Of a stretch of 64,000 bases of DNA, positions 1 through 19,901 are shown piece after piece (position 1 is the first letter of the stretch; each line of letters starts with the position of its first letter). The DNA is from Duganella sp. 1224. GTDB lineage: Bacteria > Pseudomonadota > Gammaproteobacteria > Burkholderiales > Burkholderiaceae_D. The translations under genes were made by a program, and so were the position numbers. The stretch spans positions 2,542,001 through 2,606,000 of the forward strand of contig NZ_JACBYS010000001.1 in NCBI RefSeq assembly GCF_013408245.1, given 5' to 3'. Below the pieces are notes generated by a model. It was not told the DNA's origin. It searched no databases and saw only the letters and a program-made list of their open reading frames with translations.

Positions 1-2
1 GC

Positions 3-3317: not shown

Positions 3318-3330
3318 GCTCGTCGTCGAC

Positions 3331-3356
3331 TCCGACAACACCGCCTGGTTGTCGGA
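3331..3356. other. Hairpin just after the large ORF
   Basis: Perfect inverted repeat with 9-bp arms (TCCGACAAC and GTTGTCGGA) around an 8-nt loop, 14 nt after the stop codon of the large ORF. There is no T-run after it, so it may act as a 3'-end structure rather than a classical intrinsic terminator. The rest of 3357-3529 shows nothing recognisable. Confidence 0.45.
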
Positions 3357-3529
3357 CACGCGGAGCGGCTGAACGAACAGTAGCAGTCAGCCTAGTTGGC
3401 GCTTTTAGGGAGGGCCACCCTTACTGAGAGGAAGGGCCAGCCTCCTAGGCTAAAGCAAAAGCTAAAGCAAGATCGCCCCTTCGCCCTCACCCCCCACGCC
3501 GTTGGGGGCTTTGGCCCGGTAGTCTTTAC

Positions 3530-3553
3530 GATGGTGTCCCACCGAGTGGTGTA
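3530..3553 (+). repeat. Left terminal inverted repeat of the IS
   Basis: Begins GATGGTGTCCC and ends TGGTGTA. It pairs with the reverse complement of 4896-4919, with four mismatches clustered in the middle. Confidence 0.7.
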
Positions 3554-3666
3554 TGAAGACTGCGCCGGAACCGGCGTTTAGGAAGGCTGCCTGAAGGGGC
3601 GGTCATTGTGATTCTTAAGGTAAATTTGGGTTTGCGAAGACTCAACTCAACCAATAGGAAGCCACA

Positions 3667-4862
3667 ATGACCACCGCCACTATCGCATTTTCTGAGCTCG
3701 CCGAAAAGGGAGCAGACGCAGATTTCATTCGCCAGACCCTGCAGCATGCGCTGCAACGTCTCATGGAGATGGATGCCGAGGCGCTGTGCCGGGCTGCTTA
3801 CGGCGAGCGGACTGATGAGCGTATCAACAGCCGCAATGGCTACCGCGATCGAGCGTACGAGACACGGGCCGGCAAGGTAGACCTGAAGATTCCCAAGTTA
3901 CGCAGCGGTACCTATTACCCAGGCTTCCTGGAGCCGCGCCGTACCGCCGAGAAAGCCCTCACGGCCGTGATTCAGGAAGCCTACATTCAGGGCATCTCCA
4001 CCCGCTCGGTCGATGAGCTGGTCAAGGCCATGGGCATGAGTGGCGTGTCGAAAAGCCAGGTTTCACGACTGTGCGAGGAGATTGACGAGCGGGTTCACGC
4101 CTTCCTGAAGCGCCCCATCGAGGGCGACTGGCCTTACCTCTGGATCGATGCCACCTACGTCAAATCCCGCGAAGGTGGGCGCGTCGTGTCCGTAGCAGTA
4201 ATAATCGCAGTTGCCGTTAATACCGACGGTGTGCGCGAGATTCTTGGCGTTGCCACTGGCGCATCCGAGGCCGAAACTTTCTGGACCAATTTCCTGCGCA
4301 GTCTGACCCGCCGCGGCCTGCGTGGCGTGAAGCTGGTCATTTCAGATGCCCACGAGGGGCTTAAGCAGCTGCCAGCAAGGTTTTAAAGACCAGTTGGCAG
4401 CGCTGCCGCGTCCACTTCATCCGCAACGCCTTGGCCCATGTCGGAAAGGGGCAGCGCCAGGCGGTACTGGCAATGATCAACACGATCTTTGTGCAGGAAA
4501 CGGCGGAAGCGGCCGCTGGTCAGTGGCGCATCGCGGCCGACCAACTACGCGCCAAGTTCCCCAAACTGGCCGCCATGATGGACGATGCCGAAAGCGAGGT
4601 ACTAACCTTCATGAGTTTTCCGCGCGCGCACCGAACACAAATCCATAGCACCAATCCCTTGGAGCGCTTGAACGCCGAAGTCAAACGGCGCACCAACGTG
4701 GTCGGCATTTTCCCCAACGACCGCGCCATCGTGCGTCTGGTGGGCGCCATGATGCTGGAGCAGAATGACGAATGGTCGCTGCAGCGGCGCTACATGCAGC
4801 TTGAAGGATTACAAAGCTTGAGCGACAATCAGTCTGCACGGCTCTCTGCCGTGATCAACTAA
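3667..4862 (+). pseudogene. IS256-family (Mutator) transposase, frameshifted
   Basis: DDE transposase that would catalyse copy/paste movement of the element. The first part (3667-4386, 239 aa) contains the zinc-finger-like and insertion-domain region and two catalytic aspartates: D161 in LWIDATYVK and D227 in [10 protein letters not shown]. The second part (in frame with 4431-4862) contains the catalytic glutamate region NPLERLNAEVKRR. After CTT AAG at 4360-4365 the reading frame shifts by one base. Restoring a single G there rejoins the expected reading ...[19 protein letters not shown]..., giving about 398 residues, the usual length for the family. IS256 elements normally use one ORF without programmed frameshifting, so this is most simply a one-base deletion inactivating the enzyme. 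The start ATG follows AGGAAGCCACA, a fair ribosome site. Confidence 0.88.
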
Positions 4863-4895
4863 CCGGGGACCCAGCCCCTTGAGAATCACTTCTCG

Positions 4896-4919
4896 TACAC
4901 CACTTCTGGGGACACCATC
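4896..4919 (-). repeat. Right terminal inverted repeat of the IS
   Basis: Read on the minus strand it begins GATGGTGTCCCC and ends AGTGGTGTA, matching the left end at 20 of 24 positions. Confidence 0.7.
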
Positions 4920-5014
4920 CAGATACAGATCACGACCACCTCACCGCTCCCAATGAACGTGGACGATGATGCAAAACTGCGACTAGATGGCGTCATGACG
5001 CGTGCGTTCCTGTT

Positions 5015-6325
5015 CTACGCAACAAAGATCGATTCCAGTTGCAGGAATGCTGGGAGCATCAGACGACGCTCCTTAAGGCAAAACGGAAGTACCCAAAGAC
5101 GCATCCCGCTGGCCTTCGGAAAATCAAAAACGGGCAGCGCGTGGTCGAATGCATCCGTTCTGGGGTAGATCAACACAACATCCCCGGTGCCATCCAGATA
5201 ACTCAATCCATAGGCTTGCAGCTGGTAAAAGTCGCTCTGGGACAAACCGTATTTGTCCGTTCCGTTCGCCTTCAGGCTATCAAGCAGCTTCCACTTGGTG
5301 TCGAGCACCAGTAAATCTCTATCTAAATCCCGAATCAGCAAATCTGGCTTCAACCGAAACCAATTCTGTTCGCGGTGGCGAACCAAGTGATGACTGCGTG
5401 CCTGGGTCTTCAAGATAAGAGTTGGGGCCAGCTGCCGTACAAGATGCTTGGCCACATACGCTTCAAAGACGGCCTCCATCGGAAACAGCAATGATGGAGC
5501 GGTGTGGCGCCCCGAGCCCGTCAGCGGAGATTCTTCGTTCAAGATGAGGCGTGCCCAAGCAAGGGCATCGACGTAGTAGCCCATGCCTCTGTCCAGGCGC
5601 ACCTGCTGGAAATCGATTCGTGTTTGCGTGGAAGGCGGAACTTCCGCAAAAACGAAATCCAACTCTCGGGCCAGCTGCTGGCTGGCCGGCGTTCCAGTCA
5701 GAATCACCACGCGCCGTAACGCAGCGTGCAGTAGTCGGTTTTCTGGTCGGTCCGTCGAATACTCATCGTGCTCGGTGAAAAAGCGGTCTGCCCGGAACAG
5801 GTTCTGCCGCAAGTGTGGCGACATTAGGAGCTTGCCACGCAAGGCAAACAAGTTGTCTTGCCGTTGGCGATAGTCACTCCGAAGCCCACGCTTGACGACG
5901 TGCTCGACAGCACGTAGAAACTCGCTGATGAAAATTTCCAGTAGCGGCATCCGCGCCGCACAAAGTTGGGCTCTATTGGTCAACACGTGCCGAAAGCCAT
6001 GCAGACAGCACAGCATTTCAATCAGCAACTGACGCGCCTCGACCGCACCGCCACCGATGGCCTTACCGACTTTCGGCAGCACTTCTATCTGGTAACCGTC
6101 CGGCGCACGAATGACGCCGACAAAGCTGGTCACCTGGATAACACGGCGCCCACGACGCTGGGCCAAACGCAGCCAAGCGGCATCTCCCGCGTCTGCAGCG
6201 CGCAGGCATTGCTCCTCAAGCCAGCCAAATACGCTGGCCGGAACCAGGTGCACACCATCGATACCAGAGAAGTCCGCCCCAACTGCTACCAGGGCGTCAA
6301 ACTCGTAAATCGTCAAGCCATTCAT
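5015..6325 (-). CDS. mcrC: McrC-like nuclease subunit of an McrBC type IV restriction system
   Basis: 436 aa, close to the usual McrC length. McrC is the endonuclease subunit that joins an McrB NTPase ring to cut modified DNA. The N-terminal half carries the family's conserved features (FVGVIR...IEVLPKV around 68-86, and ALRGKLL plus the DEYSTDRPENRLLH block at 187-200). The C-terminal half holds a PD-(D/E)xK nuclease core: P327-D328 in RLKPDLLI and D342-x-K344 in LVLDTKWK. Its ATG overlaps the mcrB stop as TGATG, suggesting coupled translation; it is the last gene of the island operon. Family assignment is firm; which modified base is recognised is set by McrB and is unknown. Confidence 0.92.
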   Translation of the reverse strand: MNGLTIYEFDALVAVGADFSGIDGVHLVPASVFGWLEEQCLRAADAGDAAWLRLAQRRGRRVIQVTSFVGVIRAPDGYQIEVLPKVGKAIGGGAVEARQLLIEMLCCLHGFRHVLTNRAQLCAARMPLLEIFISEFLRAVEHVVKRGLRSDYRQRQDNLFALRGKLLMSPHLRQNLFRADRFFTEHDEYSTDRPENRLLHAALRRVVILTGTPASQQLARELDFVFAEVPPSTQTRIDFQQVRLDRGMGYYVDALAWARLILNEESPLTGSGRHTAPSLLFPMEAVFEAYVAKHLVRQLAPTLILKTQARSHHLVRHREQNWFRLKPDLLIRDLDRDLLVLDTKWKLLDSLKANGTDKYGLSQSDFYQLQAYGLSYLDGTGDVVLIYPRTDAFDHALPVFDFPKASGMRLWVLPFCLKERRLMLPAFLQLESIFVA

Positions 6326-8706
6326 CAGGCTGGAAGTGTCTGATAGATGCCGATGTAGGCGTCCGGGTTGGTGAATGACGCATCCTGAACCACGTAGCGC
6401 GGCTTGGTGGCATAGGTGTCCAGGCTGTGATCGCTGCCGAACAAGCGCGCCAGATCCTCTTCATGATCCTGGCTTTCAATCACAAACCGAGCCGCCTCGA
6501 GCTTCTGGTTGTCTGCCAGCACAAGCCGGATTTTTTGCCAGTCCTCGAAGAAGTATTCCTCGAGCAAGGGGACGATGCGATTACTGAAGACCTGCGACAG
6601 CGCCACGAGCCGTTCGTCTCCGTCAGGAACTTGCGCAAGCGATGTGAAGTAAGCATGACCGATGCAATGATCTCGGTCGTAAAGCGCCTCGACTCGCTGA
6701 TTGATGACAGACAGCATTCGAGGGATGTCGATCACCTGCCCACCCAATGTCACCCGCAGACCAAAAAGTGGCGCACCCGCCTCATCACGAGCATCGGGCA
6801 GCACAGGTACAAAGTCGAACCTGCGACGCAGCGCCGTATCCAGCAGGGCAAGCGACCGATCCGCTGTGTTCATCGTGCCGATGATGTCAACGTTGGGTGG
6901 TACCGAGAATGACTCGCCCGAGTACGGCAACGTAACCGAGATGGTGTTTTCAGCACCCTCTCGCTTGTCCGGTTCGATCAATGTGATCAGTTCGCCGAAA
7001 ATCTTGCTGATGTTACCCCGGTTGATCTCGTCAATGACCATGGCAAAGCGCTGCTCCGGTGCGAGGCGTGCCTTGCGGCACAGGTCCTTGAATGCGCCTG
7101 GGCGTATTTCGTACTTGATCGCACCCGAGCCAGTATCGTCATCTAGCACCGGACGCAGGCCTTCCACGAACTCCTCATAGCCGTACGATTGATGGAACGT
7201 GACAAAACTGTAGTGACGAAGGATTTCCGAAGACTGAGCGCCAGCCCGGTACTCCTTGAGTAAGGCAACGAGGTCGGCGCAGGCTTCTTCCCATTCACCG
7301 GTCAGTTGCCAAACAGACTCCTCGCTTTTGTCAAATACCTGCGGGCTAAAGCGCAGCCTCTGTTTGACAGACGTGGATTCATCAACCGTACGTTCTTGCA
7401 GTGTCGTCCAGATTGTCTGTCGCAGGTTCTCCTTGCGGCCTTTTGCCATCGCCAGCGCACCGATGAAGGGATGCCCCAATAGCTGGCTCACGTTGGCCTT
7501 GCCGCCAAGGTCGATCAACGCAAGGACTGCAGCTTCCCACCATTTCAGCGGAGCAATCCTGTCAGCGATAAATTGGCTCTGCCATTCCGCCGTAGACACC
7601 GAGGTCATCGCCTGCTCATAGTCCCGCCGGAGCAATTTAGAAACTTCGTATGTCTTGCCGGTCCCGGGCGGCCCGTAGTAGATGCGATTGAAGGCTTGCG
7701 TGACAGCGGCGTCCATTGGTGGCTCCTCGTCATCGGACTCCTCGTCCGACTCCGTCGGATCATCCCGAAGTTGATCTGGCCACAGACCTGGGCGTTCGGT
7801 TTCCAACACCAACCACTCGTCCAGCGTTTCACGCTCGGAGACCAAGGCGGCTTCAATTTTCGCCACCAGATCATCGATCAGTAGCTCCCGGTTCAACTTG
7901 GGCACGGCACCGACATCACGTGTCCAGGATATCTTTCGGGTGCGGGTCCCACGGATCACACCGAGCACGCCGATCGCACGCTCACTGCCTGGGTTCTTGC
8001 GGCCAAAGCGCACCTGAATTCCTTTGCCCAAATGCCACCAATCTAGCCCCGCCGCGTGAACAACTCTGGCCAGCCGGCAAAACGTAGCCTTGTCCTGCGC
8101 CGACCAAGAAGCCCGGAAGGTTTTGAAGACAGGCTTGCCATCGAAGTGCTTGAGCAGATCTTCGTCGCTGAGCTTTTCCGCCAAATCCAGCTTTGTCACC
8201 ACCTCGTCAAAACGGAAGCGGAATTTGCGAATGGCCTCGATGCTCCAATCGACTAATTCAGCCAGCGATTTACCCAGCCCTTCTGATGCCGGAAGCATAG
8301 CGACGATGGGCGACGCGTTGTCGTAGGCGCCGCGTAGTGCAAGGTAGTCACGACGCACAGGCGCGCCCTCATCAAGCGCGACAGTGTCGATCTTGACCAC
8401 AAAGCCATCATCAGCCCCAATCCCCACGGTATAAGCCAGTTCCTTGGGGGAATCCGCTGCCGGGTAGATGCGTGCCCAGTTGTATGGCAAGAAGGAATTC
8501 GCCTGACTGGTCGGGCGTTTGCGAACCTTAACCACACCCGTCGGGAACAACTTGGTCTTCACCTCGTTGGCCCAAGCCTCGGTGACCTCGTAGGCCTTCT
8601 TCAACTCTTCGTAGGCGCGGTTCTGCTCGGGGTTGGATTCATCGCGCTTTTGCCCCTTCCACTTGTTCAGCAGTTTGAAGTGGTCACTGGTGAAATAGTC
8701 CGCCAT
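6325..8706 (-). CDS. mcrB: McrB-like AAA+ NTPase with a non-classical N-terminal domain
   Basis: 793 aa AAA+ motor of an McrBC system. The AAA+ part shows Walker A GPPGTGKT (345-352), Walker B MVIDEINRGN (556-565) and the McrB hallmark MNTADRS (about 612-618) followed by an arginine-rich RRRF segment. About 200 residues separate Walker A and B, including what looks like a small helical insertion (about 385-490). Residues 1-310 precede an acidic linker (about 312-330, rich in D and E) and do not look like the DUF3578-type DNA-binding domain of E. coli McrB; I do not recognise this region, which should decide target specificity. The gene lies 6 nt after the YgjP-like peptidase gene and overlaps mcrC by one base, so it belongs to the same operon as the type I system. 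Confidence 0.9.
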   Translation of the reverse strand: MADYFTSDHFKLLNKWKGQKRDESNPEQNRAYEELKKAYEVTEAWANEVKTKLFPTGVVKVRKRPTSQANSFLPYNWARIYPAADSPKELAYTVGIGADDGFVVKIDTVALDEGAPVRRDYLALRGAYDNASPIVAMLPASEGLGKSLAELVDWSIEAIRKFRFRFDEVVTKLDLAEKLSDEDLLKHFDGKPVFKTFRASWSAQDKATFCRLARVVHAAGLDWWHLGKGIQVRFGRKNPGSERAIGVLGVIRGTRTRKISWTRDVGAVPKLNRELLIDDLVAKIEAALVSERETLDEWLVLETERPGLWPDQLRDDPTESDEESDDEEPPMDAAVTQAFNRIYYGPPGTGKTYEVSKLLRRDYEQAMTSVSTAEWQSQFIADRIAPLKWWEAAVLALIDLGGKANVSQLLGHPFIGALAMAKGRKENLRQTIWTTLQERTVDESTSVKQRLRFSPQVFDKSEESVWQLTGEWEEACADLVALLKEYRAGAQSSEILRHYSFVTFHQSYGYEEFVEGLRPVLDDDTGSGAIKYEIRPGAFKDLCRKARLAPEQRFAMVIDEINRGNISKIFGELITLIEPDKREGAENTISVTLPYSGESFSVPPNVDIIGTMNTADRSLALLDTALRRRFDFVPVLPDARDEAGAPLFGLRVTLGGQVIDIPRMLSVINQRVEALYDRDHCIGHAYFTSLAQVPDGDERLVALSQVFSNRIVPLLEEYFFEDWQKIRLVLADNQKLEAARFVIESQDHEEDLARLFGSDHSLDTYATKPRYVVQDASFTNPDAYIGIYQTLPA

Positions 8707-8712
8707 GTTTTT

Positions 8713-9471
8713 TTATATTCCCTCAACATCAATTCCGTGTTCGGCCAGCCAGGCCCTTCGCTGCGCATAGTCGGGCATTGCACGCTCAACGCGCAGCCAG
8801 AAGGCAGGGTTGTGGTGCGGCTCGTGAAGGTGGGCAATCTCGTGCACCACCACATATTCCGCGATACGGGCAGGCAGCAAAATAGTCTTCCAGTGGAAGT
8901 ACAGCCAGTCGCCCTTTCCGCAAGAACCCCAGCGATAGCCGAGGTCCTGCACCTTCACGCCAGCCGGTGTCACCTCCATTCGTGACTGGTAATCGCCCAC
9001 CCGGCCCGACAGCCAGACCCGAGCCCTTTCGCTATACCAGCGGATGAAGTGCTCCCGTGCGCCTGCTTGCGCATCGTGACGCAGCGCAAAGCGACCATTC
9101 ACCAACTTCAGGGGCGTGTCTTGGTCACCGACCAATTTCAGCCGATGGCTGCGCCCCAGGTACAGGAAGCCCTCGCCACCAACAAACTCTTTGCGCGGCA
9201 CCTTGCGTAGTAGCCGATCCTTCTCAGCCAGTTTGGTGTAGATCCAGAAGCGCTTCTCGCTGACAAATTCGCGGAGTTGGTCGATGCCCACCTCGGGTGG
9301 CGCGCTCAGAATCAGTTCCCCCGTTCGTTCCACCGTGATTTGCATCGACCGGCGCCGGGCGCTGCGCCGTATCGTGAATTGCAAGTCGTCCACGTGGATA
9401 CTAGCCACGGCCTCAGCCTTGGCCGCAGGGCCATCCACGTGGCGGTTAGTAGATTTCAGGGGCGTCAGCAT
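8713..9471 (-). CDS. YgjP-like (DUF45) zinc metallopeptidase associated with type I restriction
   Basis: 252 aa. The C-terminal half contains the zinc-peptidase motif HEIAH (210-214) with a further histidine pair in EPHHNPAFW (219-220) and the family's YRWGSC segment (179-184), the signature of the YgjP/DUF45 M48-type group. Such genes commonly sit directly beside hsdR in type I operons, as here: 4 nt after hsdR and 6 nt before mcrB. The substrate is not known; turnover or quality control of the restriction subunit is a possibility, not shown. The start chosen is the ORF's first codon; an internal start is possible because the first 25 residues look poorly conserved. Confidence 0.85.
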   Translation of the reverse strand: MLTPLKSTNRHVDGPAAKAEAVASIHVDDLQFTIRRSARRRSMQITVERTGELILSAPPEVGIDQLREFVSEKRFWIYTKLAEKDRLLRKVPRKEFVGGEGFLYLGRSHRLKLVGDQDTPLKLVNGRFALRHDAQAGAREHFIRWYSERARVWLSGRVGDYQSRMEVTPAGVKVQDLGYRWGSCGKGDWLYFHWKTILLPARIAEYVVVHEIAHLHEPHHNPAFWLRVERAMPDYAQRRAWLAEHGIDVEGI

Positions 9472-9475
9472 GGCT

Positions 9476-12400
9476 TTACACCTGCACCAGTTTGTCGTGA
9501 CTGGCGCGCGCCTGCTCCATCAATTTGTCCGCCAGCACGCCCGCCTTGTCGGTGTCCACCAAGGGGGGCCTCAGGCGCATCAAGTGCTCGAACAGTTGCG
9601 TATTTAGGTCTTCCTGTGCCGCACGTTTATGCGGGCTCCAGATATCGCGGTTGCCTTGCAGCTCCTGCACCAAAAGGTCCACCAACTCCACGGACACATC
9701 CTTCAGTCGCAGCAATTCGGCTGCGGTGGGCGTCTGTCCAGCACACACCACGTCCAGTACGGTGCGCAGGAAAGGCGCGCAATGCTCGGGCAAGTCGCTT
9801 GGCGCATCAGCACTACCTGCCTTGCCAGTGCGCAGCTCGTCGATGATCTTCTGCAGTTGCGAGATCACCTCGTTCCACTTTTCGCCCAGCGTTTTGAGAA
9901 TGTCGTTCAAGTGCTCCGAGAGCTTTCGGTACAGCACGGGGTCTTCATCGGTGTACTTGCGGATGTGCGAGCGAATAGCGTGTTCCATTTCGGACGCCTT
10001 GGCGCGGTCGTTCGCGGACCGCGCAACGTGCGTGTCGAACTGGGCATCGGTCAGCTGAATCGGCGGGATCTTGGGGTCAATCCCCATTGAGATCACATGA
10101 TCGTCGATCAGCTTGCGCACCTTGGCGCCCACATCCTTACCCAGCACCGGCGTGTCCTTGTAGCGGTTGCGGGCGCGAGCGTAAATATAAGCGAGTTTCT
10201 TGGCGTCACTGGTGTACGGCAACCCGTCCGGTCGCGGCAATACTGTGTCGAGCGATCCGAGGAAGGCCTTGAGCTTGACCGCGAACTCGGCGCGCAACTT
10301 CTCGCTACCTAGCGCCTCGACGCAGGCTTCGGTGTCCTCCAGCGATTCAATACCCCGCTGGCGGAACAGATCCACCATGCGCAGGTGCCGGTCGCGCAGT
10401 ACCGGTACCTCGTCCTTCAGGCTGGCCAGCGCGCCTTCCAGGTCCTCATCGGCATAGGCCGCCAACGCCTCCTTCAAATGCTGCGCGACGCCGTAGTAGT
10501 CCACCACGATGCCACAGCGCTTGCCGAAGCCAGTGCGGTTGACGCGGGCAATTGCCTGCAGCAACTCCGCCTCGCGGATCGGGCGATCGAGGTACATCAC
10601 GCCTTCGATGGGCGCATCAAAGCCAGTGAGCAGCATCGACTTCACCACCAGAAAGACCAGCGGGTCTGTCTTCTCGGGTTTGGCATGGAACAGCGGCTTC
10701 TTGAAGCGCTTGATCAGCTGCTCGTGCGCGGCACCGTCGGTCCACTGCTTCCAGGCTGGGGCGTCGTTGTTGCTGCCCGAAATGATGGGCGCGAATTCAA
10801 TGCGCGCCAGAGTGTCGCGGTAACGCCAGGCCTGCACCACCGCCTGCATGCTCACAGGGCGCTGACACAGCGCCTCGTCATCCAGCGTTCTGTCCTCAGT
10901 CGAGAGCGCGTGGGCCTCGGCCAGCAACTCATCGCGGGCTGACCGCAGGGCCTCGAAATAGCGAATCGCCGCCAACCGGCTGTATGCCACCACTTGCGCC
11001 TTGTAGCCGTTAGGCAGGATGTTGGTGACGTAGTGGCGAAGGATGTCGCGCGCTTTGTCTCCGATCAGCGCCGGGGCGTCAAAGATGTGGCCCTTGGTGG
11101 CGTACTTTTTCTTGATCGCCTCCAGTTGCTCCGGCGAGTGCTGGCGGAACAGGTCTTCGAACAGTTCGTCGAGGCTGGAGCCGTCTTTGACAGCGCCGTT
11201 GGCTGTGCGGCCTTCGTAAAGCACCGGCACCGTGGCGCCGTCTGCCTCGGCTTCCTTGATGGTGTAACGGTCAATGAACTCGCCAAAAATCTCATGGGTG
11301 CGCTTCTTGTCTCCCATGAGGATTGGCGTGCCGGTAAAGCCGATGCGCGCGCAGTTGGGCAACCCTGCCAGGAGGTTGGCATGCAGGTCTCCCGCCTGGG
11401 TGCGGTGCGCTTCGTCCACCAGCACGAGGACGCTGTCGTCCTCGTTCAGCACCTCAAAATTTTCGTCGACTTTATAGGTAGCCTTCGATTCCTCCACCTT
11501 AGGTAGATCGTCCTCAGTCAACGGCGCATCACCGACGCTGTCCGGGTTGCGGTATTTTTGGATCGTGGCAAAGATCAGCCCTGGGCCCTTGCGCCGCGCC
11601 AATGCCTTGACGCCCGCCGTGCTCTCGGCAACATCAACCAACTCGCCGGTCAGCGTGGCGGTCACGGATAATTGGCCCTGCAAGTCCTTGCGGTCGGTTA
11701 CGACTATGACTTTGAAGCTCCTCAGTTGCGTGTCCCCGCGCATCTTGCGCACCAGGAACACCATGGTGAGCGACTTGCCCGAGCCTTGGGTGTGCCAGAT
11801 GATGCCGCCGCGCTTGTCGTGCTCGCCGTGCTGTAGTCGCGTCTGGCCGGTCTTGAGACGCGCAACCGCCCGATTTACCGCCCGATACTGCTGGTAACGG
11901 CACACCGTCTTGATGGTGTGACCGCCTGTCTGCATGAACAACATGAAGTTCTTCACCACATCCAGCAGATGCGATGGGGACAGCAGCCCGGCGATCAATC
12001 GCTCCTGCTCGGAGAGGACTGGCTTGCCCAAGCCTTGCGCCACTTCAATCTCAGTACCGGTGCCATCGGGGCCAACTACCGTCTTCCACTGGGCGTAGTG
12101 CTCGAAGGCCGCACCCACGCAGCCCACGCGAGCCTCGTCAAAGGTGCTGGCTACCAGCAACTGGTTGGTGCCAAACAGGGGTTCGTTGCCCTCATTGTCA
12201 TCCACCTCAAATGCCGCCTTGCGCTGGTTGCTGTAGCGCCGCAGTTGATCTACGGCCGCGGCCAGCGGCTCAGGGACGGACGGGCTCTTGCATTCCACTA
12301 CCACCAGCGGGATTCCGTTCACCAGCAACACCAAATCGGGCACGATGAATTGCTTGCCGCTGTTGAAGCCGGGCGGGCAATCGACGCGGTACTGGTTGAT

Positions 12401-12793
12401 CACCGTGAAGCGATTGTTGGCCGGGGTATCCCAGTCTATGTAGCGTATGATCTGGCCACGCCCGCCGTCCCAGCCGGACAGGCCTTCCACAGTCAGGCCA
12501 CGGATCAACAACGATGTCGCCTTCTCGTTGGCTTCCATCAGCTTGTGCGTGCCCAGCCGGGTGATGGCAGCTATGGCTTCCGACAGCCGAACCTCGTCCA
12601 GCCACGGCGCACCATCAGGCCCAAGGTTCAGCGCGCGCAGTTGTTCGCGCACCAGCCCCTCTTGAATTACTTCGGCAAAGCCAGTTCGGCCGGTCACCGA
12701 CGGGTCGTCAATGCTGCCCTCGATATGCGCCCAACCCAGCGACTGCAACTGGGCCAGGAAAGGCTTTTCGACGTCTTTGAGTTCCCAGCCCAT
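9476..12793 (-). CDS. hsdR: Type I restriction enzyme, R (motor/nuclease) subunit
   Basis: 1,105 aa, normal for HsdR. The N-terminal nuclease domain has D153 in VPDLVLLV and E167-x-K169 in VVECKS, the PD-ExK signature. It is followed by the SF2 translocase: Walker A TQGSGKS (335-341), DEAH box VLVDEAHRTQ (about 458-466), TGTP and the motif VI-like ARVNRTGFGKR. The C-terminus (about 800-1100) is helical and would dock to the methylase complex. HsdR with two HsdM and one HsdS cuts unmodified DNA after ATP-driven translocation. Its ATG overlaps the hsdS stop (TGATG), pointing to coupled translation; the YgjP-like gene follows 4 nt later. Confidence 0.95.
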   Translation of the reverse strand: MGWELKDVEKPFLAQLQSLGWAHIEGSIDDPSVTGRTGFAEVIQEGLVREQLRALNLGPDGAPWLDEVRLSEAIAAITRLGTHKLMEANEKATSLLIRGLTVEGLSGWDGGRGQIIRYIDWDTPANNRFTVINQYRVDCPPGFNSGKQFIVPDLVLLVNGIPLVVVECKSPSVPEPLAAAVDQLRRYSNQRKAAFEVDDNEGNEPLFGTNQLLVASTFDEARVGCVGAAFEHYAQWKTVVGPDGTGTEIEVAQGLGKPVLSEQERLIAGLLSPSHLLDVVKNFMLFMQTGGHTIKTVCRYQQYRAVNRAVARLKTGQTRLQHGEHDKRGGIIWHTQGSGKSLTMVFLVRKMRGDTQLRSFKVIVVTDRKDLQGQLSVTATLTGELVDVAESTAGVKALARRKGPGLIFATIQKYRNPDSVGDAPLTEDDLPKVEESKATYKVDENFEVLNEDDSVLVLVDEAHRTQAGDLHANLLAGLPNCARIGFTGTPILMGDKKRTHEIFGEFIDRYTIKEAEADGATVPVLYEGRTANGAVKDGSSLDELFEDLFRQHSPEQLEAIKKKYATKGHIFDAPALIGDKARDILRHYVTNILPNGYKAQVVAYSRLAAIRYFEALRSARDELLAEAHALSTEDRTLDDEALCQRPVSMQAVVQAWRYRDTLARIEFAPIISGSNNDAPAWKQWTDGAAHEQLIKRFKKPLFHAKPEKTDPLVFLVVKSMLLTGFDAPIEGVMYLDRPIREAELLQAIARVNRTGFGKRCGIVVDYYGVAQHLKEALAAYADEDLEGALASLKDEVPVLRDRHLRMVDLFRQRGIESLEDTEACVEALGSEKLRAEFAVKLKAFLGSLDTVLPRPDGLPYTSDAKKLAYIYARARNRYKDTPVLGKDVGAKVRKLIDDHVISMGIDPKIPPIQLTDAQFDTHVARSANDRAKASEMEHAIRSHIRKYTDEDPVLYRKLSEHLNDILKTLGEKWNEVISQLQKIIDELRTGKAGSADAPSDLPEHCAPFLRTVLDVVCAGQTPTAAELLRLKDVSVELVDLLVQELQGNRDIWSPHKRAAQEDLNTQLFEHLMRLRPPLVDTDKAGVLADKLMEQARASHDKLVQV

Positions 12794-14130
12794 CAGGTGC
12801 CCCCTTGTTGTTGTACGGCTTCGGCCAGCAGTGGTATGACGCGGACGCGGCCGGTGAGAAGGTCATCCATCAAGCCAGCTTTAAATGCCTTTAACTTCTC
12901 AAGAGACTCATCCTCTGCGCGAATTCGACCATCACTCGCCCGGACACGATCGACGATGGCGGACTGCTCTTCGAATGGTGGTCGCAAGACAATTAAATCT
13001 TTAACAATTGCCTGCGAGATATTTGTCTGAGACTCAGCCATACCACTCAATGCACGACCGAGTTCAGTCTGGACAACTCGACTTGATAGCGCCAAAGCGA
13101 TGTATGCGGGAATCTCTGTAGAAAGAGTCCGCAGACGGTACATCTTGTCAGAAATCATCAACTTCTTACGGCTCGATTCAACATAGGCGACAACTCCGAC
13201 ACGGCTCGCAGGTCCTGCCCGTGTAATCAGTATGTCCTCTGCCTTAACCTCAAGATCGGGCCGCGCTTTGAAGATTGGTGGCAATGCTTTGCTCTCTTGA
13301 TCGCTGTAACCGGCCCAAGTGATCGCAGTAGTTTTCAGGACTCCCCAAGATCCAGAGTCTGCAGGGAGTGAGTCGCAATCGGGGCTCCATCCTTGTCCAA
13401 TACTTAAAACCAAAGCAGCTAACCTGACTGCATCCCACTCCTTCGGAATCCACCCCAACGGCGACTCCTTGTAGAGATGCGGAGCCTCGGCTTGCGGGGG
13501 GCGCAGTTCGCCGTTAGCACCGATGCCGCACGTCAGCACGTCTTGCAGTAGGCCCTGCTTGACGGCCTTGAGCTTGGCGATGATCGCCTCTGTCTCGTCT
13601 ATGGCGATATCGAGGGTGTCGAGGATCTGCGCGACTTTTTGCTGCTCACTTAAGGGAGGCAGTTCGATCGGGACGGCTTCCAAGATGGCCTTTGATAGTC
13701 CGCCGCGACCGCCACCAGACGAACGCGCACGGAGCTCCTCGTATCTTCGATCCAAGTTGTGAAACAGATAGTCTGTGCGCAGGTCGCTTCCGTTTGCTTT
13801 CAGAAGCGCGATGGACTGATTGGTGCTGAGGGCGCATAAAGTAACCGCTACTGTTCCCCGCGTTTTTCCTTGACCAGCTAGGCCAACGGCGACAGCGGGC
13901 GGGTTAGTCAGGGTTGCATTCGACGAACGCAAGCCAAGCGTCGTAATCCGACCGGGAACATCGGTGATCCTTCGGAGATGAACATCACCGGACGCCATCC
14001 AAGGAACGTCACCGCCCCAGAACTGCCGCACCTCTGTCGATGGGGTACCGCCAAGGATGCACTCAGATACTTGCCCAAGGGTTGTGGAGCTCCAGCCCTC
14101 GGGAAGGTCGGTAGCGAGCTGATTAGACAT
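12793..14130 (-). CDS. hsdS: Type I restriction-modification specificity subunit
   Basis: 445 aa with the expected two target-recognition domains, each followed by a helical spacer: the first ends near [18 protein letters not shown], the second near [18 protein letters not shown]. These two similar repeats are the half-site-recognition and HsdM-contact helices of HsdS. The start overlaps the hsdM stop by 8 nt. GC and codon use dip in the variable target-recognition domains (for example around 12900-13450), typical of swapped recognition domains. The recognised sequence cannot be read from the protein alone. Confidence 0.94.
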
Positions 14131-16627
14131 ACCGCAACCCCTTCAAAAATTCCTGCAAGGCTTTCGCCGCCTCATCGCGCTTGCCCTCAATCTCGATCAG
14201 AGTAACGCGATACTTGTCCCACCAGTTCTCGAACGCGGCCACGATCTGCTTAAGCTGGGCAGCCATGTAGCGCTCGACTATTGAGCGCATGTCGTTGTGC
14301 AGGATGGTCAGCAGCAGCTCGGCGGATGCCTCCGCTGTCAGACCACCCACCGCTTCATCAATATGCTGTTTGAAGCTGTCATTCCTGGCCTTGAGCTGCT
14401 TCTTGACTGCAGTCAACTCCTTCTTCCAGGCTTTGATCTGGGCTTCGTCCACGGTATTTTCTTCGTCGGCCTCATCCTCCACTGCATCGGAAGCATCGTC
14501 ATCCTCGTCCTCGGCATCCTTGGGGCCGGCGGCCTTGATCTGGCTGTCCAGCTCGGCCTTCTTGGCTTCCAGTTCGGTGATGCCATCTACGAAATCACTC
14601 ATCAGGAACTTGACCAGCTTGTGCTCCAGCGGGCTTTCCTTGCTGGCCTTGTCTTCCAGCGCGGTGACGATGCTGATGCGCCAGGCGTCTGCCACGCCCT
14701 TGGCTCCACGTGCCATCAGGGTGAGGAAGTCGTATTTGGTCTGGTACCAGAAACCGGCTACGATGCCGCGCACCTGGAAGCGGTCGAGCAGACCAATAGC
14801 CTCTAGGCTTTGACTGAAGCTGGCCAACAGGTCGTTGCGCAGCGCGACCAGGCTGGCGGCGTTGTCCATCTGCCCGGACAGCGCCGTGATGCGGGCGCTG
14901 TGGCCTTGCCACCATTGCTCGAAGGCGGCGCGGATAGCCGCTTCCTTGGCGACTAGGCCAGCATTGGTTTCGATGGTCGGTTTGAGGGCTTGCCGTGTAT
15001 CGAGGGCAGGCGCGAAGTCGAAATACTTGGCATCCCTTTCCACCAGCAGGTCCAGCGGGTTCAGGCCGTGTGCGCTGAACAAGCTTGCCTTGTCGACCAC
15101 CTCGGTTTTGGGGATGCCGCCCACCAGATGGGCGCGCACGTCGTGCGGCTCGGGCGGCGGCGCGTTGTCGGCGTAGCGGCGGATGTTGAGGCTGTAGTCG
15201 TTGGCCTTGAGTGTGGCCTTGTCGACGATGGCCGAGAAGCCGTCGATGGCACGAAACTCGTCGAAGGTGGTGACGATCTTCTCGATGTGCTCGGGCAACA
15301 GGTAGTTCTGCGCGCGACCTTCGAAGAACTCGCGATCTGCGTTGATGAACAGCACCTTGCCCTGGCGCTCCGATGGCTTGCCGCTGACGCGCTTGGCGCC
15401 GTTCTGTACTCTCTGGCGCAACACCAATACGCATGCCGGTATTGGTGTGCCGTAGAACAAGTTAGGTGCGACACCGATAACGGCTTCGAGCAGGTCATCC
15501 TCAATGATGCCGGCGCGGATATTTTTTTCCTCGCCCCCCCGGAAAAGCACGCCGTGAGGTAACACCGTGGCCACCATGCCACCGTCGCGCGTGACGGCCA
15601 GCATGTGCTGTAGGAACATCAGGTCGGCCTTTTTGGCACCCAGCGGCACCTGACCGTAGGGGAAGCGCTCGGCCTCGAATTTAGGCCTCCAGGCGGGCTT
15701 GCCGTCGGCGTCCTTCTCGGTATTACCCCAATGGATGGAAAACGGCGGATTGGTTAGCACGCGGTCGAAGTGCATCAGCTCGCCACCTTCTACGTGCTGC
15801 GGCTCCGCCAGTGTATCTTCGTTTTGCAGGTTGGCGGTACTGATGCCGTGCAGCAGCATGTTCATCTTTGCAATTGACCAGACCGTGCCGTTGAATTCCT
15901 GCCCGAACAGGTTGGCCTTGCGGCCGTCTTCGCCATGCTCGTCGATATATTCCTTGGCGGCGATCAACATGCCGCCGGAACCACAGCAGGGGTCGTAGAT
16001 GTCGTGCTGAAGCTCGGGTTTGATTAGCCGCACCATCATCCGCACCACTGAGCGTGGCGTATAGAACTCGCCGCCTTTCTTGCCCGCCGAATCGGCAAAC
16101 TCACCAATCAGGTATTCGTAGGCCGCTCCCAGCAGATCGGGAAACTCAAAGTCTTCGTTGCACAAGCGGTGCAGGCTGAAATGCGTGATGAGCTGCTGCA
16201 GCTTGATATCGGGAATCTTGCTCTGGCCGATTTTGCGAGTGAAGTCGATGTGCTCCAGAACGTCGTAGAGGCTGACATTTTCACCCTCGATCCCGGCCAG
16301 CGCCTTGCTCAGCAGGCTGCCGACATTGGCCTGACGCGAGTTGTCGACCAGGTAGCCATAGCGCGACTCCTTGGGCACCCAGAAGTAGCCATCCTTCTTG
16401 TACCAACGTTTGTTCTCGGCCGAGGACTCTGCTTCGGCGGGCGTCTTGCCCGCATCGATTTCGAGCTGTATCACCTCGGCACGGCGCTGTTCGAACACGT
16501 CGGAGCAGCGCTTGAGGAACAGCATTCCGAAGATGTACTCCTTGAACTCGGAGGCATCCATCTTACCGCGCAGAATGTCGGCGGCTTTGAAGAGGTGGCG
16601 TTCTAGCTGTGGCAGGGTTAAGGGCAT
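14123..16627 (-). CDS. hsdM: Type I restriction-modification N6-adenine methyltransferase subunit, long form
   Basis: 834 aa gamma-class N6-adenine methylase. The helical HsdM N-terminal domain is followed by the SAM-binding motif I in [10 protein letters not shown] (211-220) and catalytic NPPF (293-296). The usual HsdM is about 500 aa; the extra C-terminal part (about 500-834) contains coiled-coil stretches around a very acidic D/E-rich block (about 700-735), probably for subunit contacts. The gene starts 46 nt after the WYL-regulator gene ends, so the two are probably co-transcribed. Modification protects host DNA from HsdR. Confidence 0.95.
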
Positions 16628-16673
16628 GTAAGGGATCCAGTTAAAGTCGGTTGTTCTGTATTGGCGCGGCGCA

Positions 16674-17585
16674 TCAGTCGGCCTTGCTCGAGGCTGTTTG
16701 CGTATCTGGCGAGCGATAGCCTGGAGCCAGCATTGCGTTCTTCACGCCGTAAAGTGCTAGATGGTCTTTGAGCCACAGGCGATATTCGGGGCCACGCAGA
16801 TGGTGGTCGGGGGAGCAGTCGACGCTCCAGCGCCGGAGCATGTATCCAGCTGCAGCAGCACGAAGCTTCAGCGCCAGCGCGCCGCCCGTGAAGCCATAGT
16901 CGCGTGCAGTGATTTCAGGTCTAGGTTGGTCTGGATGCGGAACCAGCTCGATCTCGATAATTCGTGTCCACTGGATGTCGTCGTCCGGGCGTTCGCCAAC
17001 CTTGGGATTTTCGTCTAGTGTCCTGGGAGATTCGATCCGGGTGATGACGAAGTCGCGGAACTCTCCGGTCTTGCGGTCGAACGCTCGGACGTGCCAACGT
17101 AGGCCGCTGTCAACGAGTGCGAAGGGGACGATCACCCGTTCGGACTCTCCGCTGTTCACTGAGTAGTAGCGGATGGCTACAGGACGCTTGGCGTGGATGG
17201 CTCGGCAGATAGGTGCCAGCACATCCATGCAGGGATTGGTTAGTGCAGCAAGGGACTCGCATGGCAATAACGGCTCTGGCTCCCCGTTCACTCCATCACC
17301 AAAACCCAACGAGAGCGCCGACAGGACACGCTGCGGTGCGTGCTCGAAGACCGGAACGAAACTCTTACCTATACGGTAGATCTTATTGCTACCGTCGAAC
17401 TCAATGTTTTGGGGGGCGACCTCACGGTACAGCGCCAGGTCACGTGTTGCCCCCGCCGGTGCCACTCCGAAGCGACTACTCAGATCAGGTCGGCCGATCT
17501 GACCAATGAAGTATAGGCGGAAGTCGATGTAGGCGAGCCGCTCTCGTTGTGAATGACTCAGGAGCGTGACGCGTTGAGGGTGCAT
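16674..17585 (-). CDS. WYL-domain transcriptional regulator (BrxR/CapW-like), likely repressor of the restriction operon
   Basis: 303 aa from the ATG at 17585; a TTG two codons upstream is also possible. A GAGAG 9 nt before the ATG is a modest ribosome site. The N-terminal third looks like a winged helix-turn-helix ([16 protein letters not shown]...). The middle holds a WYL domain (PVAIRYYSV ... [10 protein letters not shown] ... [11 protein letters not shown]) and the C-terminus a WCX-like segment. The family includes BrxR and CapW, dimeric repressors at the head of defence operons. Here the gene is first in the operon and a palindrome lies about 75-100 bp upstream of its start, so autorepression with control of the downstream restriction genes is the natural reading; this is inference. 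Confidence 0.85.
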
Positions 17586-17659
17586 GGTCAAGCGCTCTCA
17601 ACCGCCGCAAACGACGGAAAGATCGAGGCCAACTTCACGTTTTCTCATTTGCACACGCC

Positions 17660-17684
17660 TAATATCATCAAAATGATGACATTA
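17660..17684. promoter_or_regulatory. Probable operator palindrome of the WYL repressor, with candidate promoter
   Basis: Inverted repeat with 11-bp arms (TAATATCATCA and TGATGACATTA on the + strand, one mismatch) separated by AAA. It lies upstream of the WYL gene on the minus strand. Just upstream on that strand a TTGACC (+ positions 17694-17699) could serve as the -35 box, and the -10 region would then fall inside the palindrome, so a dimer bound here would block transcription. CapW and BrxR repressors are known to bind such palindromes ahead of their own genes. Between 17700 and 17828 I see only a further hairpin (arms AGGCGTC/GACGCCT, 17772-17810 region) and no gene. Confidence 0.6.
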
Positions 17685-17828
17685 TGCGTCTAGGGTCAAG
17701 TTTGAGCAAGCGGCCAAATTGTCGACCCGACGGACTCGGGGCCACGGCATTACTAGGTGCGTGCATAGGCGTCGATCCTTATCGGGATCGAACGTCTAGA
17801 CGCCTGGAGAAAGTGTTACTAAGGAAGA

Positions 17829-17854
17829 GCACAGCAGCCCGAAGGCCGCCGTGC
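17829..17854 (-). terminator. UUCG-tetraloop hairpin, likely terminator of the zinc-ribbon gene
   Basis: On the minus strand an 11-bp stem (with G-U pairs) from GCACGGCGGCC to GGCUGCUGUGC closes a UUCG tetraloop and is followed by UCUUCCUU. It starts 30 nt after the stop codon of the gene ending at 17884. The pyrimidine tract is imperfect. Confidence 0.55.
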
Positions 17855-17883
17855 GCTTAGTATGAGTTAGCGCGGCGTGGTCG

Positions 17884-18258
17884 TTACCACGTCCCCATTT
17901 CCGACGCAGTGACTGCCTCCGGGTCTTCGGCGCTCACCTTTCCGAAGCTGAATTCACAACTCAGACATAGGAAGTTTTTGAGAACGCTCTCATCAATAAT
18001 TTCTCCCAGCACGGCACCAGCAGAGGCACCGGTAGCACCGCACACAAGCGCACCGACGATGGCGCCTGCTATGCCACCGATAGCGATGCCAGGCGGTCCT
18101 GCAACAATCCCGAGGGAAGCGCCCAGCTCCGCGCCACTTGCTGCGCCTAGCCAGCCACGAACCGCGCCAGCAATCGTGCCGATTGAACAGGTGACCATTC
18201 TTGCGTAATTTTTAGTGGCGATTTGGTCAGATTCACATCGAGGGCAACGAAGTGTCAT
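17884..18258 (-). CDS. Small zinc-ribbon protein with glycine-zipper core
   Basis: 124 aa. An N-terminal CPRC (residues 5-8) and a later CLSC (about 97-100) make a split four-cysteine zinc site. Between them lies a 60-residue Gly/Ala-rich hydrophobic segment (IAGAVRGWLGAASGAELGASLG..., IAIGGIAGAIVGALVCG) of glycine-zipper type, which could span or insert into a membrane. I do not recognise a named family beyond this architecture. The ATG overlaps the stop of the upstream membrane-protein gene by 4 nt (ATGA), so the two are translated together. Confidence 0.7.
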   Translation of the reverse strand: MTLRCPRCESDQIATKNYARMVTCSIGTIAGAVRGWLGAASGAELGASLGIVAGPPGIAIGGIAGAIVGALVCGATGASAGAVLGEIIDESVLKNFLCLSCEFSFGKVSAEDPEAVTASEMGTW

Positions 18259-18521
18259 TTTTCGATGCTCCTTTGCTCCATCTGTACGGCTGAGAGGTTA
18301 CGTTCAACATTGGCCCGCTTGTAGTGGTCACGGACGGCGTTACGCCGTACACGCTCCATGTAGCCGATAAAGCTAGCCGTCGATATGACGCCCGCTGCAA
18401 AGACGATGACAAATGCAGTGAGATGCTCCAGGGGTGATGGGAATGGTCGCGTGGGTACTCCTTTGAAAGTGAAAATTGAAATGATCCGGACGATTCGTCC
18501 ACAGAAACGCAAAGAGGGCAT
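18255..18521 (-). CDS. Small putative single-pass membrane protein
   Basis: 88 aa from the ATG at 18521; the frame stays open to a TTG at 18560, which would give 101 aa. A hydrophobic segment (HLTAFVIVFAAGVISTASFIGY) is followed by a basic region (MERVRRNAVRDHYKR), consistent with one membrane helix. The 5' end lies in a strong 21-bp-arm hairpin that would bury the ribosome site of the ATG start, so the start is uncertain and translation may be structure-controlled. The stop overlaps the next gene as ATGA. No recognisable family. Confidence 0.5.
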   Translation of the reverse strand: MPSLRFCGRIVRIISIFTFKGVPTRPFPSPLEHLTAFVIVFAAGVISTASFIGYMERVRRNAVRDHYKRANVERNLSAVQMEQRSIEK

Positions 18522-18558
18522 ACTCCCGCAGCCAAGCTGGCTGCGGGAGTATGCCCTC
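18514..18558. repeat. Perfect 21-bp-arm inverted repeat
   Basis: Arms GAGGGCATACTCCCGCAGCC(A) at 18514-18534 and its exact reverse complement at 18538-18558, with a 3-nt loop AGC. On the minus strand the stem is followed by CTTTGCGTTTCTG, a weak T-rich tract. It overlaps the start region of the small membrane-protein gene. It could be a terminator, an attenuator or a mobile-element scar. Confidence 0.75.
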
Positions 18559-18577
18559 AATGGGTGAGATTACCTTG

Positions 18578-18757
18578 CTAAGCCAAGCCAGTCACGCCGA
18601 CCGACAGTGCCTTAACTTGCCGTTCTCCTTTCAACAATATATTCCTGAAATTTTCTAGCTCGATACGCCTTAACCCGTCAAATACGGTGGCGTCGAACAC
18701 CATGCCCGCAATGATCAATGGGACGCACCGCAGGTAGTAATTTAAGCTGCTATTCAT
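18578..18757 (-). CDS. Doubtful small hydrophobic ORF
   Basis: 59 aa from an ATG at 18757 (63 aa from a TTG at 18769). It contains a short hydrophobic stretch (RCVPLIIAGMVFDATVF). No convincing ribosome site and no family recognised. It lies in the gap between the small membrane-protein gene and the divergent 269-aa gene, so it is listed only as a possibility. Confidence 0.25.
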   Translation of the reverse strand: MNSSLNYYLRCVPLIIAGMVFDATVFDGLRRIELENFRNILLKGERQVKALSVGVTGLA

Positions 18758-18845
18758 TTCTGAAATCAATTTTCCTTCTGGCTCCGCCTAGACATGACCT
18801 TTACAAGCTGGTACGGTTGTTTGGTTTTTAGTATCAGGTGACACT

Positions 18846-19655
18846 GTGAACAACGTCGACAGACAGCCTCCAGGCAGCGCAGACCTACAAAAATCATTCG
18901 GCATGGAAGCCCGTGATTTCGCTTGCATCCTACTTCCCCATATCGACTATGACTCGCAACTTCGGGCCATAGGTTCCCTGCTCGACCTGCACCGGCAGAA
19001 CGCAAAGCGCCGCAGCGAAGCAATCCAAGGGATCGAGCGGGAACTGCCGCATCTTAGCGGCGTGCAAAGCGACCTCGCGAGCGACGAGCGGGTCGAGATG
19101 CTACATCGGTCCGTTTATGAGGACGCCGCACACAGCATGGCCGCAATCGGAATGCTTGCACCGCTTATCGAGACAATTTTCTACCAAGCATTTCAATCCG
19201 CCCGCCCATACTTCGGCGACGCCGCCGAGCAACTTCTTTTTCATCGAAAATTGGAGGCGGATGCGGAGACCCGATGGGATTGCCGATTCATTTGGGCAAA
19301 GGGGAAAAAAGTCGGTAACTCAGTCGAAGGCATAATGCAACTGTCCGCCGCAATTGGGCTAGACGAATTTCTGCCTTGCAACATCCGAGAAACGCTGAGC
19401 GCAGTCTTCGCTTACCGCAACAAGATGTTCCACCTCGGCTTCGAATGGCCGACGGACGAGCGTAAAAGGTTCAGCGCGAGAATTGTGAGTGAGAAATGGC
19501 CAGCGAACTGGTTCGCGTGGGCAACGAGCAATTCCGAGCCTTGGGTCTGCTACATGACAGACACTCTCATTTTTGAGTGCGTCACGCAGATTGGCAACGT
19601 ATTGCACGGCCTGGGTAGATTCGTCGTCGAAAAGCTTCCAAATCCGACAGGCTGA
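18846..19655 (+). CDS. Unrecognised 269-aa protein with HEPN-like Rx4H motif
   Basis: Starts with GTG at 18846; an ATG at 18903 (MEARDF) is an alternative. The protein looks entirely helical. At residues 191-196 it has R-N-K-M-F-H (in AVFAYRNKMFHLGFEWP), which fits the Rx4-6H active-site motif of HEPN-superfamily RNases, including the preferred polar residue (N) after the arginine. HEPN proteins are common effectors of toxin-antitoxin and abortive-infection systems. It lies between the defence genes and the tRNA and has island-like base composition. No cognate antitoxin (for example a minimal nucleotidyltransferase) is visible beside it. The RNase idea is inference from one motif and context. 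Confidence 0.7.
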   Translation: MNNVDRQPPGSADLQKSFGMEARDFACILLPHIDYDSQLRAIGSLLDLHRQNAKRRSEAIQGIERELPHLSGVQSDLASDERVEMLHRSVYEDAAHSMAAIGMLAPLIETIFYQAFQSARPYFGDAAEQLLFHRKLEADAETRWDCRFIWAKGKKVGNSVEGIMQLSAAIGLDEFLPCNIRETLSAVFAYRNKMFHLGFEWPTDERKRFSARIVSEKWPANWFAWATSNSEPWVCYMTDTLIFECVTQIGNVLHGLGRFVVEKLPNPTG

Positions 19656-19811
19656 TTGGCTAGAACTGCGTTTCGGGTGAAGAAAGCATGGAGTTGCACT
19701 CAGGCAGCAAAATTCATATTTAACCGACCATTGGTTTGATAGTCAACTTGATAGTTACACCCATTGAAATAAGAATTTCAATAATAAAATCAATGACTTA
19801 CAACCAAAATA
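19656..19811. other. Island/tRNA junction, no gene seen
   Basis: 156 nt of AT-rich sequence between the HEPN-like gene and the 3' end of the tRNA. I see no integrase, no terminator and no obvious tRNA-end duplication inside it. Confidence 0.5.
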
Positions 19812-19901
19812 TGGCGGAAGCGGTGAGATTCGAACTCACGAACGGCTCTCACCGTCGGCAGTTTTCAAGACTGCTGCCTTCAACCACTCGGCCACGCTTC
19901 C
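19812..19901 (-). tRNA. tRNA-Ser (anticodon TGA)
   Basis: On the minus strand the sequence begins GGAAGCGTGGCCGAGTGGTT and ends with GCTTCCGCCA. It has a long class II variable arm, a T-loop GTTCGAATC and an encoded CCA. The anticodon loop CTTGAAA gives TGA, reading UCA-type serine codons. Its 3' end faces the defence island. Confidence 0.96.

Follow-up and report, generated by a model that had tools for sequence, protein, structure and literature searches.

What holds together a locus in which type I restriction-modification (RM) genes, a metallopeptidase gene and mcrBC follow one another on a single strand, and to which of its neighbours does the peptidase belong? Such a locus occupies positions 5015-17591 of a stretch of 64,000 nucleotides (nt) from Duganella sp. 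1224 (contig NZ_JACBYS010000001.1, positions 2,542,001 to 2,606,000), referred to here as the window, where seven uninterrupted open reading frames (ORFs) on the minus strand encode a WYL regulator, HsdM, HsdS, HsdR, a YgjP-like peptidase, McrB and McrC. An initial annotation regarded them as type I RM and McrBC fused into one operon. Comparison of related loci indicates instead that the cluster consists of two exchangeable restriction modules and is not a fusion, and that the type I half includes ygjP, read here as its fourth gene. The puzzling part of the cluster is this peptidase gene, which stays beside hsdR where McrBC is missing.

Gene content and recurrence of the order

Starting from the regulator, the genes are the following.

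16674..17591, minus strand: BrxR-family WYL transcriptional regulator, 305 residues from a TTG start, with an in-frame ATG at 17585; Pfam WYL 3.4e-14
14123..16627, minus strand: hsdM, type I N6-adenine methyltransferase, 834 residues; Pfam N6_Mtase 5.2e-95, HsdM_N 9.8e-29; NPPF motif
12793..14130, minus strand: hsdS, specificity subunit, 445 residues; Pfam Methylase_S in two stretches
9476..12793, minus strand: hsdR, type I motor-nuclease subunit, 1105 residues; HSDR_N 8.4e-36, SWI2_SNF2 1.2e-70, TIGR00348 9.1e-122
8713..9471, minus strand: YgjP-like zinc metallopeptidase (predicted peptidase), 252 residues; PF01863 3.2e-54; HEIAH motif
6325..8706, minus strand: mcrB, McrBC-type AAA+ GTPase, 793 residues; AAA_5 1.7e-11; matches to the McrB GTPases 6ut3 and 6hz4 of the PDB
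5015..6325, minus strand: mcrC, endonuclease subunit, 436 residues; PF10117 3.7e-103; PD...DTK in the translation

The seven families, their order and their common strand had been named in the initial annotation, and ORFs, Pfam profiles and motifs bore them out, the regulator now starting at the TTG at 17591 and not at the in-frame ATG. All seven genes are backed by Pfam, McrB through its AAA domains alone. HsdM, HsdS and HsdR together supply the methylase, target-recognition, motor and PD-(D/E)xK nuclease parts of a type I RM system (Pfam, PADLOC, NCBIfam and motifs), with PD-ExK, GSGKS and DEAH motifs in the HsdR translation. McrB, with GPPGTGKT and NTAD (an NxxD motif), and McrC, with its PD-(D/E)xK nuclease, are the two components of a type IV McrBC enzyme, and YgjP combines the PF01863 profile match with the HExxH site. 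All these catalytic motifs are intact in the translations. Membership of the CoCoNuT branch of McrBC was considered and discarded, since that branch has a shortened NxD motif and the window McrB has NTAD; the distinction between NxxD and NxD McrB proteins is drawn in the part of PMC11090510 available to us.

The junctions are as tight as initially described (gaps of 46 nt or less, two TGATG sequences and one 8-nt overlap), which coordinates and sequence confirm. A 46-nt gap separates WYL from hsdM, hsdM and hsdS overlap by 8 nt, hsdS and hsdR share 1 nt in a TGATG, gaps of 4 and 6 nt precede ygjP and mcrB, respectively, and mcrB meets mcrC in the second TGATG. Similar junctions are found across hosts, for example in Acidovorax, Sheuella, Rhodoferax and Alcanivorax, and because they recur in this way the arrangement is more than chance. 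Their conservation also supports the proposal, made already in the initial annotation, that the seven genes are likely a single transcription unit. Internal promoters or terminators between the halves had been named there as a point to check. A consensus scan of positions 4800-18000 detected no sigma-70-like promoter on the minus strand; this is weak evidence, and the scan also missed a weak promoter seen by eye upstream of WYL; terminator-like sites in the same interval occurred, in a weak scan with both strands pooled, at the shuffled rate (14 against a shuffled mean of 12.0, standard deviation 3.3).

In this regard, 15 named genome loci were fetched by HsdR alone, with HsdR 67-94% identical to that of the window. 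YgjP lies directly after HsdR in all 15. McrB and McrC follow YgjP in 9 of the 14 evaluable loci (L014-L020, L025 and L028; L021 ends at YgjP), and in the remaining five (L022-L024, L026 and L027) neither McrB nor McrC was matched by the window proteins as queries at E 1e-4, a search that distant McrBC could escape. The front of the cluster varies more: WYL stands directly before HsdM in 4/15 loci (L014, L017, L028 and, partial at a contig start, L019), two genes come between them in L016 and L020 (a DEAD helicase and a DprA-like protein in L016), L015 and L018 have no WYL match, and L021 and L027 no HsdM match. The order thus recurs in named genome loci, as the initial annotation had asked to be checked in a second genome, and the IMG/VR contig L104 carries all seven genes, with HsdM as one frame of 913 residues. 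The gap between WYL and HsdM is 46 nt in L104, as in the window, and 92, 70 and 58 nt in L014, L017 and L028. Between hsdS and hsdR some loci hold a further gene, encoding a YhcG-type nuclease (L015), a Schlafen-AlbA protein (L022 and L026) or an AbiEii-like ATPase (L024). A cyanobacterial plasmid carries, in one direction, genes for HsdM, a PDDEXK nuclease, HsdS, HsdR, an SprT-type peptidase, McrC and an AAA ATPase that matches the window McrB; there mcrC precedes the McrB-like gene, and this arrangement was perhaps assembled separately.

The peptidase and the boundary between modules

Among 80 genomes (that of the window and G041-G119), ygjP lies directly downstream of at least 15 of 46 HsdR genes on the same strand, a lower bound since several HsdR genes end at contig edges; HsdR was counted at HSDR_N scores of at least 60 bits, and five low-scoring or secondary YgjP rows did not enter the count. 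Of the 45 other HsdR regions, 39 were fetched. On an HsdR tree of 45 rows, of which 23 have YgjP and 22 lack it, the presence of the peptidase changes 3 times, 2 of these changes being forced by well-supported branches, while shuffled labels require 15.3 changes on average and none of 500 shuffles came as low as 3. The tree is a quick build with several long branches, some flagged as doubtful joins; L091 and L097, whose HsdR is short, and L089, which lacks DNA downstream, are not in it, while 8 of the 15 named genome loci are, close relatives of the window that help the clustering.

Each of the 38 linked YgjP rows listed retains the HExxH site, and in 20 of these rows (17/34 counting each gene once) ygjP overlaps hsdR by 4 nt. 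Moreover, YgjP stands beside HsdR in L022-L024, L026 and L027, where any McrB, McrC or WYL match is missing, and plasmid records annotate the HsdR-peptidase pair in cyanobacteria, Hoyosella, Arcobacter and haloarchaea. It is because of this neighbourhood, of the clustering on the HsdR tree and of the persistence without McrBC that YgjP is assigned to the HsdR side. Its identity and position were correctly given in the initial annotation, which offered no role for it; the linkage now places it with HsdR. In plasmid records, 355 of the 562 with a YgjP match belong to Klebsiella. The one of them that was looked at, L116, holds at 1412-15090 a type I module with genes for YecA and a cold-shock-domain protein, an SprT-type peptidase after HsdR and, about 860 nt further, two DUF262 proteins, a pair which may be, judging from this one record, another type IV partner.

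A close comparison of L014 with L019 locates the limit between the two halves. Protein identity between these loci is 96% for HsdM, 98% for HsdR and 95% for YgjP, and 74% and 76% for McrB and McrC; the McrB row of L020, read in an incorrect frame, was not used in the identity comparisons. At the DNA level, the YgjP/McrB junction marks a step from 97% to 72% identity; in alignment windows of 250 columns it is 86-98% through the end of ygjP and 58-80% thereafter. As the step sits at this junction, our reading is that in L014 mcrB and mcrC were replaced together, the exchange leaving YgjP with the type I genes. The word fused in the initial annotation was consequently too strong, given this step and the five evaluable HsdR-YgjP loci with no McrB or McrC match. 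The specificity gene is less conserved: the window HsdS is 34-41% identical to the HsdS of ten sister loci whose HsdR is 72-94% identical, and between the window and L019 HsdS is 37% and McrB 96% identical. Low conservation of HsdS beside a conserved HsdR is usual for type I specificity genes.

Regulator, candidate McrB reader and genomic setting

The best solved relative of the WYL protein is 7qfz, deposited as 'WYL domain-containing protein' (7e-81, residues 11-293), which we take to be BrxR of Escherichia fergusonii pEFER; CapW and BrxR entries come next, and 7t8k, named BrxR, matches at 2.4e-20. The relationship to BrxR extends over the full length, so that the regulator annotated at the 5' end is, by sequence, BrxR-like. 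Three features precede it.

17660..17684, minus strand: candidate repressor operator, an imperfect inverted repeat (arms of 11 bases around a 3-base spacer) that lies 99 nt ahead of the WYL ATG
17681-17709, minus strand: weak putative promoter, seen by eye, with a -10-like CATAAT overlapped by the first repeat arm and TTGCTC 17 nt upstream
17829..17854, minus strand: hairpin resembling a terminator, immediately ahead of the operon, with 11 base pairs (8 G-C); listed first among the 14 terminator-like sites; consensus match only

The inverted repeat is kept in L017, whose WYL protein is 90% identical. According to the available part of PMC9122601 (Picton et al. 2022), the inverted repeat bound by the E. 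fergusonii BrxR lies shortly after the -10 of its promoter, and BrxR homologues stand beside type IV (37/210) and type I (34/210) systems. The reading as a candidate operator draws on the presence of a comparable repeat here and in L017; the repressor probably binds this repeat, located at the promoter of its own gene, and thereby holds expression of the operon down. WYL heads the operon in the window, as initially annotated, but it is no fixed part: besides the loci without a WYL match (L015 and L018) and those with two inserted genes (L016 and L020), it is divergent in L014 (36%), which makes it the most replaceable gene across the loci.

What McrBC reads would depend on the N-terminal part of McrB. 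The whole 335-residue N-terminal region was modelled at a mean pLDDT of 76.9, and residues 1-175 form a separate domain with a pLDDT of 93.7. VIA-align placed 2a8e, presumably a DUF1054 protein, at the top for the 1-175 model (Z 11.4, root-mean-square deviation 3.8, 159 aligned residues), well above unrelated rows, whereas a second DUF1054 entry, 3mqz, scored about as high as unrelated rows there (Z 6.4) and reached Z 8.4 when the longer model was used. With the 1-175 model, eight entries for the DNA-binding domain of E. coli McrB gave Z 4.2-4.6, values of little meaning alone. No YTH or EVE entry was named in 50 VIA-align rows, which excludes nothing, and no open-access literature linking DUF1054 and McrB was found. 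Altogether, the modelled domain leans weakly towards the McrB-N of E. coli, which reads modified cytosine. Of 369 class genomes, 2 contain a match to the N-terminal region, the window's own genome among them, and 4 plasmids match it over 41-55% of its length. A Rhizobium plasmid (L110:3899-5422) encodes a 507-residue protein without a Pfam match that is 43.5% identical over McrB residues 1-176, suggesting a use of this domain in other systems. The initial annotation had stated that McrB must ignore the HsdM methylation mark, which is sound logic; since some McrBC relatives read N6-methyladenine (PMC12707154, as available), the question of compatibility is a real one.

The operon looks horizontally acquired. 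The window HsdR shares 82-94% identity with its counterparts in seven loci from several genera (L014-L019 and L028), while a full-length McrB match occurs in none of the 24 genomes of the same genus searched. The G+C content is 53-62% in the first 20 kb of the window against 66% at 20-64 kb, and the low-G+C stretch (1-19901) has a tRNA-Ser gene (19812-19901) at its end. A search for direct repeats of at least 15 nt shared between the region of this tRNA gene and either the remainder of the window or the 20 kb upstream found none. Directly downstream of mcrC lies a transposase-like gene (3667-4862), presumably of IS256 type, in two frames (3667-4386 and 4431-4862) and probably broken. Beyond it, a plus-strand protein of 1098 residues (21-3317) lacks a Pfam match above cut-off and is matched weakly in PADLOC by PD-Lambda-4_A (9.8e-5); it is possibly another defence gene. 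Three viral contigs (L101, L102 and L103) carry the C-terminal part of McrB with McrC (66-70% McrC identity); within the available stretch they show no HsdR, HsdS, YgjP or WYL match, and L101 has one weak HsdM-like match (23%).

Proposed working, rival explanations and related systems

A horizontally acquired defence operon with two exchangeable restriction modules behind one regulator is, in our view, the probable nature of this locus. Computation shows which genes are present, that their motifs are intact and their order conserved, that there is one breakpoint between modules, and that HsdR and YgjP are linked. The BrxR-type repressor would hold the operon low through the inverted repeat. 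The first module (hsdM-hsdS-hsdR-ygjP) would mark adenines at its site and, on derepression, cut DNA lacking the mark, while YgjP would trim or clear HsdR complexes, limiting self-damage or recycling spent enzyme. The second (mcrB-mcrC) would act as a GTP-driven type IV nuclease whose variable N-terminal reader directs it to foreign DNA with other modifications.

Several points weigh against this picture. Co-transcription, repression, both cleavage activities, the target of the McrB reader and the substrate of YgjP are what we infer from the sequence. The sharp seam is known from one locus, L014, where faster change of one block is an alternative, and in L015 and L018 identity declines gradually from HsdR to McrC. 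L087, one of 14 rows of the window's HsdR clade, has no YgjP; and on the YgjP tree, which has no YgjP from L063 and four genes present twice, the HsdR-linked label changes 6 times (10.2 on average after shuffling, 0/500 as low), so that the linkage was gained or lost several times. An action on HsdR complexes, by trimming or clearing, is the most likely role of the peptidase and, being drawn from its linkage, the weakest step. The inverted repeat was not found upstream of WYL in L014, L016, L020, L028 and L104, whose WYL proteins are 36-62% identical. McrC matches occur in 5 of the 80 sampled genomes, McrBC being thus uncommon there. The first 335 residues of McrB matched no Pfam family, and Foldseek gave no match at E <= 0.001 for either this region or the 1-175 domain; dependence on modification, assigned by family, is most likely.

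Plain clustering in a defence island, with co-oriented neighbours expressed separately and mutually independent, would account for the independently differing McrBC block of L014, for the five loci without McrB or McrC and for the viral contigs with McrBC alone. Such clustering fits poorly, however, with the 6-nt gap at the module junction, with similar junctions in several hosts and with the co-directional type I genes, SprT-type peptidase, McrC and AAA ATPase of the cyanobacterial plasmid, and we regard it as rather unlikely. Quite the opposite view, that McrBC reads an unmodified site which HsdM methylation protects in the host, would make one system with two nucleases; it can appeal to the unmatched N-terminal domain and to LlaJI, a McrBC relative that, in the accessible part of PMC12707154, reads an unmodified site and includes two methyltransferases. 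The 37% identity of HsdS beside 96% of McrB between the window and L019 implies that McrB is not tied to one HsdS specificity; the viral contigs keep McrBC with neither HsdR nor HsdS match, the N-terminal domain aligns weakly with E. coli McrB-N, and this view is very improbable.

Two other explanations concern the peptidase. Its gene sits between HsdR and McrB, and the metallopeptidase IrrE works by repressor proteolysis (available text of PMC7213743), so YgjP might serve McrBC or the repressor, for example by cleaving WYL on infection, and not HsdR; its presence with HsdR in the five loci with no McrB, McrC or WYL match, and its retention in an E. coli locus whose regulator is of a different kind, make this improbable. 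That YgjP is a passenger without function in restriction we hold to be unlikely: its relatives are indeed common (a YgjP match in 228 of 369 genomes, and 53 of 68 YgjP places in the 80-genome sample not beside a counted HsdR), and the literature yielded no direct test, but the linkage is stable over deep HsdR branches, the overlaps or gaps are short and HExxH is kept in every linked row listed. A search of open-access titles and abstracts, with subscription journals largely outside it, found no role in restriction for this peptidase.

The proposal of two modules with YgjP on the type I side can be set beside known systems. ClpXP is a general ATP-dependent protease coded elsewhere. By acting on HsdR it alleviates restriction by EcoKI (Simons et al. 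2014, PMC4231737, in the portion available), and proteolysis of HsdR that protects the host is the role proposed for YgjP which, unlike ClpXP, is a small operon-coded metallopeptidase with a putative substrate. In the available text on the seven-ORF RRDM island of enteropathogenic E. coli (RptR-HsdM-HsdS-DarTG2-HsdR-M48), the island protects against phage and no function or separate test is reported for the M48 metallopeptidase (Zhang et al. 2025, PMC12255303). It resembles the cluster in having a repressor first, then hsdM, hsdS and hsdR, with a metallopeptidase directly behind hsdR; it differs in its RptR repressor, the inserted DarTG2 and, as far as that text goes, the lack of McrBC. Membership of this island was rejected, the window having WYL in place of RptR and an hsdS/hsdR overlap of 1 nt where DarTG2 would lie. 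On an E. coli plasmid with the RRDM layout by annotation, the M48 protein matches the window YgjP (25.2% identity, E 1e-11).

The pEFER BREX-BrxU island under BrxR is reportedly also treated in a further paper by Picton et al. 2021 (PMC8565348). Like the present cluster, it has one BrxR-family repressor over a modification-based system and a type IV enzyme with complementary protection, the systems being BREX and the GmrSD-type BrxU there, and type I RM and McrBC here (PMC9122601, in part). The pairing of type I RM with McrBC, present as initially annotated, is not new: the McrBC branch of E. coli K-12 frequently occurs with type I systems, usually unidirectional and potentially in one operon (Bell et al. 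2024, PMC11090510), and the E. coli immigration control region holds the pairing too (PMC3874165), as the excerpts of both have it. Adjacency, common direction and the NxxD McrB motif are shared with the K-12 type; what differs here is YgjP between the modules and the BrxR-type regulator at the head, together with another McrB N-terminal domain.

Beyond E. coli, with its control by ClpXP, it is to our knowledge not settled how type I enzymes spare the cells that make them. It is tempting, if doubtful, to go further and see in YgjP a built-in fourth part of a broad type I class of bacteria and haloarchaea: a metallopeptidase that would act on DNA-bound HsdR complexes, as the class's own restriction alleviation or as turnover replacing ClpXP, and that here would also mark the seam where type IV modules are swapped. 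Such a seam between type I and type IV modules helps explain the assembly of composite defences, and a peptidase gene behind about one third of the sampled HsdR genes (15/46) is a concrete candidate for type I self-protection.

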